Source of the DNA: a bacterium
GTDB lineage: Bacteria > Auribacterota > Tritonobacteria > UBA1439
Direction: 5' to 3'
Length of the DNA: 64,000 bases
Assembly (NCBI GenBank): GCA_028716845.1
Contig: JAQUPF010000005.1
Span: 62,001 to 126,000, forward strand
Position 1 is the stretch's first letter; every line of letters starts with the position of its first letter. The notes below the pieces were generated by a model. It saw only the letters and a program-made list of their open reading frames with translations, did no database searches and was not told the DNA's origin. Below, piece by piece: positions 11,250 through 63,743 of the stretch. The translations under genes were made by a program, and so were the position numbers.

Positions 11250-12263
11250 CTACTTTATACTAACAAGCCGGTCCTGGACCCGCATCAGGCGCATCTGCAG
11301 TTTCCGATCTTTCGATATCTTCCCCTGAAACCGCATATGAGCGTTCGCCACGGCGGCTCCCCCTATCCCCCCCAGTTTCTCTCCCAGCTTCTGGAGAGGT
11401 TCATGGCTCATGTTCAGCCTGCAACTCATCTCTATCAGCACCCGCCGCGCCTCCCTGTGCGGCGAGTGCGCCTTCAAAAGATCCTCGGGCTTCACTCCGT
11501 ACTCCTCGCCCACCACCCGCGCGATCTCCCTCATCGGGGTCGTGCCCTGCAATATGCGGGTCTGCGGCTGTTCCTTCCGCACCCACTCCCGTCCCTCGAT
11601 AAACGTCTTCCTCGCCCACTCGATGAAGCTGTCTGTCCCCAGCACCACGCCCGCGCGCGCCTCCGCGAGCGGGCTCCTGGCCCCCTTGAGCAACCCGGAG
11701 AGGACGAAGTCACGATATCTGTTCTTGCCCGCCTTGTTGTTTCCCCCCATAGAGTCCAGCACCACATCATACGTCACGAACGCATCCTGCTTCCCTGATC
11801 CTATGTACCCCGGGAAGCTGCTCCACCTGTACCCGTTCAGTATCTTCGCCCTCTCCTCGACCGGCAGCTCCGTGTACTTCTTCAGCCGCACCGGATTCAG
11901 GTGCAGATACCGGCTCAGCTCCTTCAGGTACTCATCCGCCTCCACCACGATCGCTTTGAATCTCCCCTGATACAGGTGCCCCGCACGGTGGTGCCGCAGG
12001 TTGTAGTACGTCGTGTAGGCCGTATTGAACCGCTGCATGAACCTGCTCAGGTTCGCCTCAAGCGTCCTGAGCAAAAAGTGGAAGTGATTGCTCATCAAGA
12101 CGTAGCAATGCACTTCCACCTTGAACCGCTCGATACTCTCTCTCAGCGCCTCGAGAAATCGCACCCTGTCTCTGTCGTCCCCGAATATCCGACCCCGCTC
12201 GCTCCCGCGGCTCGTGACGTGATACCATGCTCCCGGATATTCGATCCGCAGCGGTCTCGCCAT
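11250..12263 (-). CDS. REP-associated tyrosine transposase (RAYT, HUH/Y1 family) with DnaA-like C-terminus
   Basis: A 337-residue transposase. The N-terminal Y1 domain starts MARPLRIEYPGAWYHVTSRG, has the HUH motif as HFHFLLRT (SNHFHFLLRTLEANLS) and the catalytic Tyr in the helix ELSRYLHLNPVR. The C-terminal third (about 245-320: TPMREIARVVGEEYGVK..., HSPHREARRVLIEMSCRL) resembles the DnaA domain IV helix-turn-helix often fused to RAYTs. The last codons lie inside the left inverted repeat. TATAAT at 12275-12270 is followed by six bases and then ATG 12263, with no ribosome-binding site, suggesting a leaderless mRNA. Confidence 0.9.
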   Translation of the reverse strand: MARPLRIEYPGAWYHVTSRGSERGRIFGDDRDRVRFLEALRESIERFKVEVHCYVLMSNHFHFLLRTLEANLSRFMQRFNTAYTTYYNLRHHRAGHLYQGRFKAIVVEADEYLKELSRYLHLNPVRLKKYTELPVEERAKILNGYRWSSFPGYIGSGKQDAFVTYDVVLDSMGGNNKAGKNRYRDFVLSGLLKGARSPLAEARAGVVLGTDSFIEWARKTFIEGREWVRKEQPQTRILQGTTPMREIARVVGEEYGVKPEDLLKAHSPHREARRVLIEMSCRLNMSHEPLQKLGEKLGGIGGAAVANAHMRFQGKISKDRKLQMRLMRVQDRLVSIK

Positions 12264-13944: not shown

Positions 13945-15432
13945 TCACTTCACGACGACTGCCTGCGTCGCGAGGCCGGTCACCCAGCTCGAGCCCCGCT
14001 CGGGTGATTGCCGGGGCTCGACGCAGACGGCCATGAGCGTGTAGGCGCCGGGGTCGGTGTCGGGAGGAACGGCGAAGGAGAAGCGGCCCCGGGGGTTCCC
14101 GGTCGCGTTGAAATCGGTGAGGACGGGGGCGATCCCCTGCCTGAATCGAGTGTCCGGCCCCATCGTCACTATCGCGCCCGTCGGCGTCTCCACGCCGAAG
14201 TAGACGTCCACGCGGGGCGCGATGTCGTCGAGCGCCCACTCGACCGTCAGCTCGCCGCCCGCGGCGACCGTGCCGGGGCTCGCCGTGAACGCGGCCCGCG
14301 GATCTGGCGGCGGGACCGGGGGAGGCGGAGGCGGCGCCGGGGAAGGCGGCGCCCCGCGCACGGGATGGTTCACGAGGCCCGGCTCGTTGATGCCGTTGCC
14401 GCTCACCGTGTACGAGTGGCCGTCCGTCGTGATGGAGACGTGGCCGTTCGTCGTGTGGCAGTAGGCCATGTTCTCCGGCGCCCAGTCCGGACTGTTCGTG
14501 TCTCCCGCCGCGAGCCGGAGGATCCGCTGCGGCCTCTGCTCGACGACCCGCTGGAGGCGCTCGACCGTGGTCCTGCGCGGGTGGCCGTAGCCGTTCCTGT
14601 TCCAGACCGAGATGACGGCGACCTCGGGGCCCATGGCCTGGAGGAACGAGGAGGAGGAGGTGCCGTTCGTGTCCGAGCCGTGGTGGTCCACGTGCAGGAC
14701 ATCCACCGTGCGGCCGAAGTCATCGGCGACGACCCTGGAGACCGCGTTCTCCGCCCCCCCCTCGGCGTCGCTGCCGACGTAGAAATCGAAGTGCTTGTAT
14801 GTCACGAGGGCGGTGATCGACTTGTTGTTCTCGGTGATGCCGCTCGTGATGTCCCGACGGCCGCGGACGTAGATCGCCTTCTGCGTGTCGGGCGCGCCGA
14901 CCGTGAGGAAGCGGAGGACCGCCCCGTCGCCGAGGTGGATATCCGACGTCCCGTCAACCCATACGGTCCTCCTCTTTCCCGACCGGTTGACGAGGTTGAG
15001 GTAGTCCGCGTTGATGTTGGAGCCGGTGGACTGCCTGGACCCGCCCCTGTCATAGAAGGTGCCGAACGCCGGGGCCCAGCCGTCCCGGGCAACGCCGCCC
15101 ATAAGGTTCACGAGGTGGTACAACCCGCAGATGTGGTCGGTGTGGTAATGGCCGGCGACCGCGTAGTGGATGTAGTGGATCCCCTCGCGGTCGAGGAGTT
15201 GCTTCGCGGTCTGGGCCCAGGTGCGCGCCTCGCCCAGGTCGTAGAGGACGACGGTGCCGTCCGGGCCCCTGATGACCGTTCCGGTGCCGGAGCTCCCGCC
15301 GCCCCAGACGCACCAGATGTCGAGCGAGCCGGCGGAGAGGAGGGCCGGGGCGGCGATGAACAGGAGTGAGAGGACGAGCGCCGCCGCGCGGGCGCGCCTG
15401 CGCCGGGCCGTGCCGCCGCCTGCCTGCATCAT
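13945..15432 (-). CDS. Secreted ComEC-like metallo-beta-lactamase-fold hydrolase, copy 1
   Basis: A 495-residue secreted protein: Arg-rich start and signal peptide (to about residue 35, ...APALLSAGS), then a metallo-beta-lactamase domain of the ComEC/Rec2 C-terminal type. Visible metal motifs are GHYHTDHICGL (HxHxDH), a central GSDAEGGAENAV strand and HVDHHGSD. A Pro-rich linker (about 365-385) leads to a C-terminal beta-sandwich of about 100 residues (RVDVYFGVETPTGAIVTM ... GAYTLMAVCVEP). Family knowledge: ComEC MBL domains degrade one strand of DNA or cleave phosphodiesters, so an extracellular nuclease is plausible. A second copy follows upstream. ATG 15432 sits ten bases after GGAGG; GTG 15441 is also possible. 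The Pho-like operator is at 15493-15520. Confidence 0.8.
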   Translation of the reverse strand: MMQAGGGTARRRRARAAALVLSLLFIAAPALLSAGSLDIWCVWGGGSSGTGTVIRGPDGTVVLYDLGEARTWAQTAKQLLDREGIHYIHYAVAGHYHTDHICGLYHLVNLMGGVARDGWAPAFGTFYDRGGSRQSTGSNINADYLNLVNRSGKRRTVWVDGTSDIHLGDGAVLRFLTVGAPDTQKAIYVRGRRDITSGITENNKSITALVTYKHFDFYVGSDAEGGAENAVSRVVADDFGRTVDVLHVDHHGSDTNGTSSSSFLQAMGPEVAVISVWNRNGYGHPRRTTVERLQRVVEQRPQRILRLAAGDTNSPDWAPENMAYCHTTNGHVSITTDGHSYTVSGNGINEPGLVNHPVRGAPPSPAPPPPPPVPPPDPRAAFTASPGTVAAGGELTVEWALDDIAPRVDVYFGVETPTGAIVTMGPDTRFRQGIAPVLTDFNATGNPRGRFSFAVPPDTDPGAYTLMAVCVEPRQSPERGSSWVTGLATQAVVVK

Positions 15433-15492
15433 CGAGATCACGCCTCCACCCCCTTTTCCCGCCACAAGCATCGCATCCGTGGGGATCCCGCG

Positions 15493-15520
15493 TGTCATGG
15501 AAATGTGAAGAGAATGTCAG
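15493..15520 (-). promoter_or_regulatory. Pho-box-like triple direct repeat upstream of MBL copy 1
   Basis: On the plus strand TGTCAT, TGTGAA and TGTCAG begin at 15493, 15504 and 15515, an exact 11-base period; read on the gene strand these are CTGACA, TTCACA and ATGACA. This matches the PhoB/PhoP style of 6-7 base direct repeats spaced one helical turn apart. It ends 60 bases before ATG 15432. The same arrangement occurs before copy 2. Confidence 0.6.
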
Positions 15521-15641
15521 TGTTCAGGGGGTTTTCCCGCCGGGGCGCCGCAGGGACTTCCCGCGGCCCGCGCCGGGTCTCTCCCGCCCATCTTCATCCG
15601 CCCGGCGGCGCCCGCAACCGGCCGGCCTCTTTCGCCGGCGG

Positions 15642-17105
15642 TCACTGCACGAAGACGGTCTGCGTCGCGAGGCCGGTCACCCAGTTCGAGGGCTGCATGG
15701 GGGACTGCCGGGGGTCGACGCAGACGGCCATGAGCGTGTACTCGCCCTCGTCGGTCTGGAGCGGGACGGTGAAGGAGAAGCGGCCCGAGGGGTTCCCGGC
15801 CGCGTTGAAATCGGTGAGGACGGGCGCGATCCCCGGCCTGAAGCGCATGTCGGACCGCATCGTCACGAACGCGCCCGCGGGCGTCTCCGCGCCGAAGTAG
15901 ACGTCCACGCGCGGCGCGATGTCGTTGAGCGCCCACTCGACATCCATCACGCCGCCGGCGGGAACCGTCCCGGGTGTCGCCGTGAACGCGGCCCTCGGAT
16001 CAGGCGGCGGGGGAGGGGGCGGAGGAGACGCCTCGTCGGCGAGGTTGGTGACGTTGACGCCGTTGCCGCTCACCGTGTAATAAATACCATCCGTCGAGAT
16101 TTTGAGATGGCCGTTCGTCGTGTGGCAGAATTGCATATTCTCCGGGGCCCACGTAGATCTCACGACGTCTCCCGGGTGGAGCCGTATGATCCGCTGCGGC
16201 TGTTGCTCGACCACCTTCTGGAGGTTCTCGACCGTGGTCCGGCGCGGGTGGCCATTGGAGTTGCTCCAGACCGAGATGACGGCGAACTCCGGATTCATGG
16301 CGGAGAGGAACTCAGGCGAGCTGATGCCGAAGGTGTCCGAGCCGTGGTGATCGACGTGGAGGATGTCAACGTCCCTGCCGAGGTCCGACACGACATTGGC
16401 GACCTGGGCCTCGTTGTTCCCCTCCGCGTCGCTCCCGAAGTAGAAATCGAAGCCGCCGTAGGTGATCAGGCAGGTTGCGGACATGTCGTTCTCGCTCGTG
16501 CTCAGGGCGTCGGGCCTGCGCCGCACGTGGAGCGTGGTCCCGGCATCCGCCTGCCCAACGGTCAGCCAGCGAAGGATAGCGCCGTGGCCGAGGTCGATGT
16601 CCTCGGTGCCGTCCACCTTGATCGTCCTTCTCCTCGCGGTCTGGGTGACGAAATTGTAGTAGTCGGAGGGGATGGCGGAGTTGTCCTGTCTTTTGCTCCC
16701 CCCGCGGTCATAGAAATACACGGTCCCGACGTTCGGTGAGTGGCCCGTGCCGGAGTTGCCGCCGGTGAGATCCACGAGATTGTCGAGACCGCCGACATGA
16801 TCGCTGTCATAGTGCCCCGCGGAGGTGTAATGGATCTGGGTGATGCCGTTGGCGTCCATCAACGCCTTGCAGGAATTCGCCCAGGTGTTTCCGCCTCCCA
16901 GGTCGAGGAGGACCACCGTGCCGTTCGGCCCCCTGACGAGGACCCCCGTGCCGGAGCCTCCGCCGCCCCAGACACACCAGATGTCGAGGTACTGGGCGGG
17001 GAGGAGAGCGGGCGCGGAGAGGAGAACGAGGGAAAGGACGAGCGCCGCCGCGCGGCACCGCCGACGCCCCGACATGCCGACCAGTATCCGGACCACCGGG
17101 CTCAT
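15642..17105 (-). CDS. Secreted ComEC-like metallo-beta-lactamase-fold hydrolase, copy 2
   Basis: A 487-residue paralogue of the adjacent protein with the same order: signal peptide (GMSGRRRCRAAALVLSLVLL...), MBL domain, Pro linker (SPPPPPPPPDPRAAF) and C-terminal beta-sandwich ending SNWVTGLATQTVFVQ. Its first metal motif is GHYDSDHVGGL, the HxDxDH form typical of ComEC, whereas copy 1 has HxHxDH; both keep the later HVDHHGSD. Copies share most conserved blocks but differ throughout, so the duplication is not recent. ATG 17105 follows a GGAAAGGAG site with eight-base spacing. Likely extracytoplasmic nuclease or phosphodiesterase (inference). Confidence 0.8.
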   Translation of the reverse strand: MSPVVRILVGMSGRRRCRAAALVLSLVLLSAPALLPAQYLDIWCVWGGGGSGTGVLVRGPNGTVVLLDLGGGNTWANSCKALMDANGITQIHYTSAGHYDSDHVGGLDNLVDLTGGNSGTGHSPNVGTVYFYDRGGSKRQDNSAIPSDYYNFVTQTARRRTIKVDGTEDIDLGHGAILRWLTVGQADAGTTLHVRRRPDALSTSENDMSATCLITYGGFDFYFGSDAEGNNEAQVANVVSDLGRDVDILHVDHHGSDTFGISSPEFLSAMNPEFAVISVWSNSNGHPRRTTVENLQKVVEQQPQRIIRLHPGDVVRSTWAPENMQFCHTTNGHLKISTDGIYYTVSGNGVNVTNLADEASPPPPPPPPDPRAAFTATPGTVPAGGVMDVEWALNDIAPRVDVYFGAETPAGAFVTMRSDMRFRPGIAPVLTDFNAAGNPSGRFSFTVPLQTDEGEYTLMAVCVDPRQSPMQPSNWVTGLATQTVFVQ

Positions 17106-17155
17106 GCGCGCATCTCCTTTCCCATCATCAGGATCGCATCCCGGATCGGGGCGAT

Positions 17156-17183
17156 TGTCACCCAATTGTAAATGAAATGTCAG
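17156..17183 (-). promoter_or_regulatory. Pho-box-like triple direct repeat upstream of MBL copy 2
   Basis: TGTCAC, TGTAAA and TGTCAG begin at 17156, 17167 and 17178 on the plus strand, again an exact 11-base period (gene strand: CTGACA, TTTACA, GTGACA). The spacer bases differ from copy 1 while the cores are kept. It lies 50 bases before ATG 17105 in a locally AT-rich stretch. Confidence 0.6.
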
Positions 17184-62581: not shown

Positions 62582-63664
62582 CTACCGCCATCCGTACGCG
62601 CACCGCCTCCCGTAGGCGGAGCCGTCGTCGAACACGAACGCCCCCGGCACCGCGGCCGCCGCCGGCTGGAAGTTGATCCGGTCCGTCCCCCGCTCCCACC
62701 GGAGAAACGCCGCGTCGAGGAAATTCCCGTCGCCCGTCGCGAAATCCTCCGTGGACGCCTGGTTCGCGGCCGTGCTCGGATGGGAATCGCCGGACGCCCC
62801 GCCGTACTCCCATCGCAGGCGGTTGGGGCGCGTGGCGTGATCGCCCGGGTAGGCGAGGAAGTCGAACCAGTCGTAGACCGCGACGTTGTTGAGGCCGCCG
62901 TGGGCGGCCTGGTAGGCGTCCAGCCATTCCGTCTTCAGCCAGTCGTTGAACGATCGGGCGCGCGCGGCCTCCGCGTCGGTCGTCGCGTCCCACGGCGCGT
63001 AGTGGCGCGGCGGGGCCGTCACGACGATGAAGAGGACGCCGGGATGCTCGGCGAAGATGTCGCCGAGCGGCTTGTACGAATGATCGCCGCTGGAGTAGGT
63101 GTTCCCGGGCCCCGAGGGGTGGCGGAAGACCGCCTTGTAGTTGGCGAGCGTCTGGCTCGAGCTGAACGGATCCCCGGGCTCGCTCCCGTCGCCGGTCACG
63201 TTGCTGATCGGGTAGCAGCTCTTGAACATGATGATGCGGTTCGAGCCGGTCGCGCAGCCGTGCTGCCGGACGCGGCCGAGGTAGTCGTTGAACCACCGTA
63301 TCCAGTGGTCCATGTTCGTGCTGTCGCCCGGGACGGGGTCGAGCGAGTCGGGCCGCCCGGCGTCGGGAGCGAGGTCGGTCCTGTAGGAGATGTCGTTCCG
63401 CTCGTCGATGGAGGGCTTGGCGAGGAGGGCGGCCTCGAGGCCGCCGTCGCCGTCGGCGAGCCAGTTCTGGCCGCACGAGTGGTGGATGAAGACGAGGTCG
63501 TCCTGCCCCTGGCCGCGGGCGCCCGCGGCGGGCGCAAGAACGAAGGCGCATGCCGCGACGGGCGGCAGGACCATGCGAGCCATGCCGTGGAATGGAGCGG
63601 CGAGGGAGCGGCCCGCCGCCCTACGGGACAATGAATGGAGCGCTCGTCTCCGGGAATGCATCAT
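62582..63664 (-). CDS. Secreted hydrolase-like protein (SGNH/DUF4886-like)
   Basis: A 360-residue exported protein. Basic start and signal region (MARMVLPPVAACAFVLAPAAG inside the longer N-terminus), then DLVFIHHSCGQNWLADGDGGLE and NRIIMFKSCYPISNVTGDG, which recall SGNH-like fold proteins of unknown role (HHSxG start). A later segment (VLFIVVTAPPRHYAPWDATT, FDDGSAYGRR end) supports a large alpha/beta fold with a possible active-site His. ATG 63664 lies directly after CAGGAGGAGGG; ATG 63583 is an alternative. Confidence 0.7.
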   Translation of the reverse strand: MMHSRRRALHSLSRRAAGRSLAAPFHGMARMVLPPVAACAFVLAPAAGARGQGQDDLVFIHHSCGQNWLADGDGGLEAALLAKPSIDERNDISYRTDLAPDAGRPDSLDPVPGDSTNMDHWIRWFNDYLGRVRQHGCATGSNRIIMFKSCYPISNVTGDGSEPGDPFSSSQTLANYKAVFRHPSGPGNTYSSGDHSYKPLGDIFAEHPGVLFIVVTAPPRHYAPWDATTDAEAARARSFNDWLKTEWLDAYQAAHGGLNNVAVYDWFDFLAYPGDHATRPNRLRWEYGGASGDSHPSTAANQASTEDFATGDGNFLDAAFLRWERGTDRINFQPAAAAVPGAFVFDDGSAYGRRCAYGWR

Positions 63665-63743
63665 CCCTCCTCCTGAACGGCTCCGATGGGTCGAAGAACG
63701 CCGGCGGGGTGAAATATATCGCAATTCATTCCCGCGGAATATA

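Follow-up and report, generated by a model that had tools for sequence, protein, structure and literature searches.

The operators preceding two tandem MBL genes, A and B, belong to a predicted regulon of putatively secreted proteins, most likely a lineage-specific two-component regulon of the WalR/PhoB-like type. Both genes lie in the window, a stretch of 64,000 nucleotides (G000:C5:62001-126000) from a 2.68-Mb draft genome, G000, that is 95% complete. The repeats of the operators are probably binding sites of the only OmpR/PhoB-family regulator encoded in G000, which would drive the expression of the whole set. The operator and the regulon are of a known kind; by the tools used here, this particular case and the set of its targets appear new. 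The features of the two genes are the following:

17156-17182, minus strand: operator of gene A, three repeats reading TGACA-N6-TTACA-N6-TGACA on the gene strand with an 11-bp period (pattern scan and site alignment)
17130-17138, minus strand: putative extended -10 of gene A, TGC-GATCCT, 17 nt past the last TGACA (position kept across 17 sites)
17114-17119, minus strand: putative ribosome site of gene A, AAGGAG (read from the sequence)
15642-17105, minus strand: MBL gene A, 487 aa, with a secretion-signal-like N-terminus, a ComEC-like MBL domain with H98-x-D-x-D102-H103 and HHGS, and a C-terminal beta-sandwich (profile and fold comparison)
15493-15519, minus strand: operator of gene B, three repeats reading TGACA-N6-TCACA-N6-TGACA on the gene strand with an 11-bp period (pattern scan and site alignment)
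15467-15475, minus strand: putative extended -10 of gene B, TGC-GATGCT, 17 nt past the last TGACA (position kept across 17 sites)
15443-15449, minus strand: putative ribosome site of gene B, GTGGAGG (read from the sequence)
13945-15432, minus strand: MBL gene B, 495 aa, a tandem paralogue of A (64% identity) with the HxHxDH motif

The triple repeats before A and B are genuine. They read TGTCATGGAAATGTGAAGAGAATGTCA (15493-15519) and TGTCACCCAATTGTAAATGAAATGTCA (17156-17182) on the plus strand, opposite the genes, where an earlier sequence-only reading had placed the TGTCA cores. The same reading had them 11 bases apart and 60 and 50 bases before the ATG, and these distances hold for gene B (ATG at 15432) and gene A (ATG at 17105), respectively. 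The pattern TGTNA-N6-TGTNA-N6-TGTNA has no match in the window besides the two operators, and 100 shuffles gave an average of 0.00. Each start is preceded by a purine-rich putative ribosome site. The claim of the earlier reading that the cores were kept and the spacers changed is also correct: the two copies are identical at 14 of 15 core bases and 5 of 12 spacer bases. The 17-nt linker to the -10 is identical at 6 of 17 positions and the upstream flank at 14 of 37, while the coding DNA of A and B is 72% identical. Direct repeats of about 6 bp with an 11-bp period are characteristic of operators of the OmpR/PhoB family.

Downstream of both operators, at a fixed distance, lies an extended -10-like element, TGCGATnnT, which the earlier reading had missed. 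The gene-strand consensus is TnACA-N6-TnACA-N6-TGACA followed by 17 nt, TGn and an A/T pattern of the -10 type. Of 17 sites from five genomes, 14 have TG exactly at offset 17 after the last TGACA and 13 have nAnnnT at offset 20, every other offset giving at most four; nine sites have TGCGA[TC] at offset 17, and it appears at none of the other offsets tested. An ordinary sigma-70 -35/-10 arrangement for the repeats was rejected, as the hexamer TGCGAT placed 17 nt from the last TGACA lacks the key -11 A; the hexamer 20 nt from the last TGACA, behind TGn, fits a -10. Such a layout suggests an extended -10 promoter in which the repeats cover the -35 region.

A genome scan for further triple repeats, a check set beforehand, gave five additional sites beyond those of A and B. 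The strict triple pattern has three matches in G000. When up to three mismatches were allowed and the genes were read alongside, seven convincing strong sites were recognized, a count from pattern-based scans that sites with only two repeats elsewhere in G000 could escape. Six of the seven lie upstream of putatively secreted, paralogous ComEC-like MBL genes, namely A, B and those on C7 (409 aa), C24 (492 aa), C1 (429 aa) and C4 (803 aa). The hypergeometric chance of six in seven random promoters belonging to the approximately 9-12 MBL genes comes to roughly 1e-14, with a range of 1e-13 to 1e-15. The pattern TGTCANNNAANTGTNA has six matches in G000 versus none for the reversed control. The seventh site, C5:136204, is located between a PQQ-propeller gene and an operon for putatively secreted coiled-coil proteins, and was assigned to the latter because of the position of the -10. 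Three other MBL genes of G000 (C9, C1:390897 and C1:244572) have no site.

When the whole genomes of 59 relatives were searched for the pattern, clear sites turned up in three members of the same family (G002, G003 and G005) and in G006, Candidatus Tritonobacter lacicola (phylum Auribacterota), which belongs to the same class, Tritonobacteria. These sites precede MBL genes (G002:C54, G003:C40 and G005:C294), orthologues of the coiled-coil operon (G002:C79 and G006:C126) and a PQQ-propeller gene (G003:C22); on G006:C47 one site precedes an uncharacterised ORF and a weaker one, on the same contig, an ankyrin-repeat gene. The share of MBL genes among the relatives' sites is biased because most of the scanned stretches had been picked around MBL genes, a bias from which the whole-genome pattern matches are free. 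A matrix trained on the G000 sites alone gives the sites of the relatives 28-41 bits; about 0.2 matches above 16 bits would be expected by chance.

The proteins encoded by A and B carry a ComEC-type MBL domain. A Pfam search of either one alone gave no match at E 0.001, and both were identified by profile search and fold comparison: for A, ComEC MBL domains in the PDB were matched at E 3e-30, with the ComEC MBL domain 9ic4 as the top fold match. The ComEC_Rec2 model stayed below its cut-off for A and also for B (E 9e-13). Neither protein is a full-length ComEC equivalog, scoring 37-47 bits against the 190 of TIGR00361, in the MBL part only. As in ComEC/Rec2, A has the MBL fold and HHGS, and its HxDxDH is the variant described in M. 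glycerini ComEC, a protein in which this domain degrades DNA. Nuclease function is known for ComEC-type MBL domains (PMC12455585) and is plausible for the proteins described here. Unlike ComEC/Rec2 they have neither the competence transmembrane domain nor the OB fold; they appear to be free enzymes, putatively secreted as judged by eye from the N-terminal sequence, and carry a beta-sandwich, TSP3 or CBM-like part at the C-terminus. Their next known relative after ComEC is Pce/CbpE, which has the MBL fold in common with them.

The candidate regulator is the one protein of G000 with an OmpR/PhoB-type DNA-binding domain (PF00486; G000:C7:60543-61223). It is encoded between a membrane histidine kinase and a putatively secreted TPR protein, in an operon that lies away from all the sites and bears none of its own; a second such regulator could have escaped the 95%-complete draft of G000. 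In two relatives the regulator genes adjoin motif-bearing genes, as would be expected of an OmpR/PhoB-family operator and its regulator. In G003 the kinase, regulator and TPR genes follow directly on a motif-bearing MBL gene; in G006 the kinase gene is followed by those of the regulator and the TPR protein, by a SagB-like gene and then by the motif with the coiled-coil operon. The SagB-family dehydrogenase gene of G006 (L064:6113-6787) is thus placed between the regulator operon and the motif-bearing operon. Orthologues of the regulator, about 70% identical, are present in G003, G005 and G006, and both the motif and a regulator orthologue are absent from G001 and G004. The sensor part of the kinase was found only in G000, G003 and G006, and a scan of genome contigs with the kinase gave one other record, Ca. 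Tritonobacter lacicola. The sensor is large, extracytoplasmic and TPR-like, and is predicted in the structural model to consist of two membrane helices with a TPR-like insert; a Cache-type frame, as in KinD, gave a weak Foldseek match only and is not claimed.

In the proposed mechanism, an extracytoplasmic signal would be sensed by the kinase through its TPR-containing sensor. The phosphorylated regulator would bind head-to-tail on two or three TnACA half-sites with an 11-bp period, covering approximately -33 to -60, and would activate rather than repress by recruiting RNA polymerase to a promoter with a TGn-extended -10 and no separate -35. The set switched on would comprise six ComEC-like MBL phosphodiesterases or nucleases and the coiled-coil operon, and in the relatives also PQQ-propeller proteins.

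The layout of 11-bp repeats is common to WalR, KdpE and PhoB (PMC4168254, PMC3264566, PMC4415409). The WalR box, TGTWAH-N5-TGTWAH, consists of 11-bp direct repeats that may lie on either strand (PMC4168254), and the half-site layout found here fits it, but the half-site nearest the promoter is usually TGTCA, with C at the fourth position, and not TGTWA. WalR/YycF/VicR of Firmicutes also provide the nearest PDB DNA-binding domains, VicR, WalR and YycF being among the four best matches, and the best NCBIfam score of the regulator (YycF/WalR NF040534, 214 bits versus a cut-off of 340); at 126 bits under that cut-off the regulator is not a YycF equivalog. The kinase sensor is unlike that of WalK, and the targets, ComEC-like MBL and other secreted proteins, are unlike the WalRK regulon of cell-envelope genes (PMC9210968). 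The KdpE half-sites, TTTATA/TTTACA with a 5-bp spacer (PMC3264566), are close to the TTTACA seen here, but KdpE targets potassium pump genes and the regulator scores far below the KdpE cut-off.

The PHO box of PhoB, with its 11-nt direct repeats and CTGTCAT-like core (PMC4415409), deserves separate consideration, as the sequence-only reading had proposed a PhoB/PhoP-like operator acting as a phosphate-starvation switch. The first part stands insofar as the elements before the MBL genes resemble an OmpR/PhoB-family operator; the phosphate role found no support. The regulon could be the lineage's Pho regulon, run by a diverged PhoB or PhoP, with the MBL enzymes freeing phosphate from extracellular DNA or other polymers under starvation, and the nuclease character of ComEC-type MBL domains (PMC12455585) would suit such a role. 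TGTCAT-N5-TGTCA resembles the E. coli core in sequence and period (PMC4415409), and the operator likewise stands in place of the -35; unlike in the PHO box, it is the strand opposite the gene that carries TGTCA here, and 20 nt separate the last core from the -10. For the kinase core the nearest matches are PnpS and PhoR, and the best full-length PDB match of the regulator is RegX3. Against this, the DNA-binding domain is nearest to VicR/WalR, with PhoB at rank 14, and neither protein is an equivalog of its Pho counterpart (regulator 205 bits versus 296 for PhoB TIGR02154; kinase 185 versus 334 for PhoR TIGR02966, the match being confined to the kinase core). The large TPR-containing extracytoplasmic sensor, with no PAS match in the kinase, also speaks against this reading. 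The earlier proposal to check whether pst, pho and phosphatase genes carry the repeat yielded no classical phosphate gene with the motif. No copy of it lies in a 13.5-kb stretch surrounding the Pst-like ABC transporter operon of G000 (G000:C8), whose PstB-like gene scores 327 bits, just below the cut-off of 343, or in the scanned Pst-like operon of G002. The stretch around a PstB-like match in G003 also lacks it, but G003 was left uncounted, as the transporter genes were not resolved there. No PhoU match was found in G000 (95% complete); the B. subtilis control gave none either, so a Pho system may do without one. The phosphate-starvation reading of the operators is therefore a weak one, and we regard a Pho regulon as unlikely.

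The match between motif and regulator has one exception. G002 (96% complete, in 120 contigs) keeps two strong sites, yet no orthologue of the regulator or of the kinase was found in it, the nearest regulator being 38% identical. An assembly gap, a loss, or another binding regulator would each account for this, and the last would agree with a different DNA-binding protein occupying the sites in general. Such a protein is improbable, as 11-bp direct repeats are a signature of the OmpR/PhoB family, of which G000 has one member, and the operon of that member adjoins motif genes in two lineages.

Promoters of an alternative sigma factor, with TGACA as the -35, TGCGAT as the -10 and the upstream repeats incidental, are a still more doubtful source of the pattern. 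The spacing of TGACA-N17-TGCGAT is promoter-like and this is the most constant part of the element, but nearly every site retains a second repeat at exactly 11 bp upstream and most also retain the third, at exactly 22 bp, and in the relatives the -10 is more variable than the repeats. The notion that the two operators are merely a leftover of the recent tandem duplication that the 64% identity of A and B suggests can be dismissed, because five further sites in G000 precede genes that are 21-28% identical or unrelated, and copies occur in four other genomes.

Binding by the single OmpR/PhoB-family regulator is the preferred reading. As a tentative and more specific possibility, a dedicated Auribacterota two-component system, with a TPR sensor and a sole OmpR-type regulator, may run secreted ComEC-like nucleases and surface proteins that attack extracellular DNA or phosphodiester polymers, unrelated to phosphate starvation or competence. 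Sequence alone was enough to define the operator, the arrangement of the promoter, a likely regulator and a set of targets in an uncultured phylum on which hardly any experiments exist. This gives a foothold for studying an unexplained family expansion, that of the dozens of putatively secreted ComEC-like MBL proteins which these bacteria encode. The case also indicates that pst genes and the regulator need checking before phosphate control is read from 11-bp TGTCA-type repeats.

The expansion of ComEC-like MBL genes for putatively secreted proteins is considerable in G001-G003 and G005, each genome having about twelve or more of them; the majority lack the operator. The C-terminal domain (residues 278-400) of the 409-aa MBL protein (L022) is shared with many more putatively secreted proteins encoded in these genomes, PQQ-propeller and redoxin-like proteins among them (also L021 and L045). 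Two similar RAYT-like transposase genes, recognized by eye, are located near A and B (window 11250-12263, minus strand) and near the MBL gene on C7 (L022:3690-4268). Finally, a similar C-terminal tail, approximately INFQPxxxxxPxGYxxDxGxxYGxRGxxYGW followed by 0-4 residues before the stop, is found on at least 17 putatively secreted proteins; they are encoded in the window (62582-63724, minus strand), at L024, L025, L047 and L049, and in the relatives at L069, L105 and L137. An NCBIfam scan of four of the tailed proteins matched no C-terminal sorting model, and the tail is a candidate for a new sorting tag.
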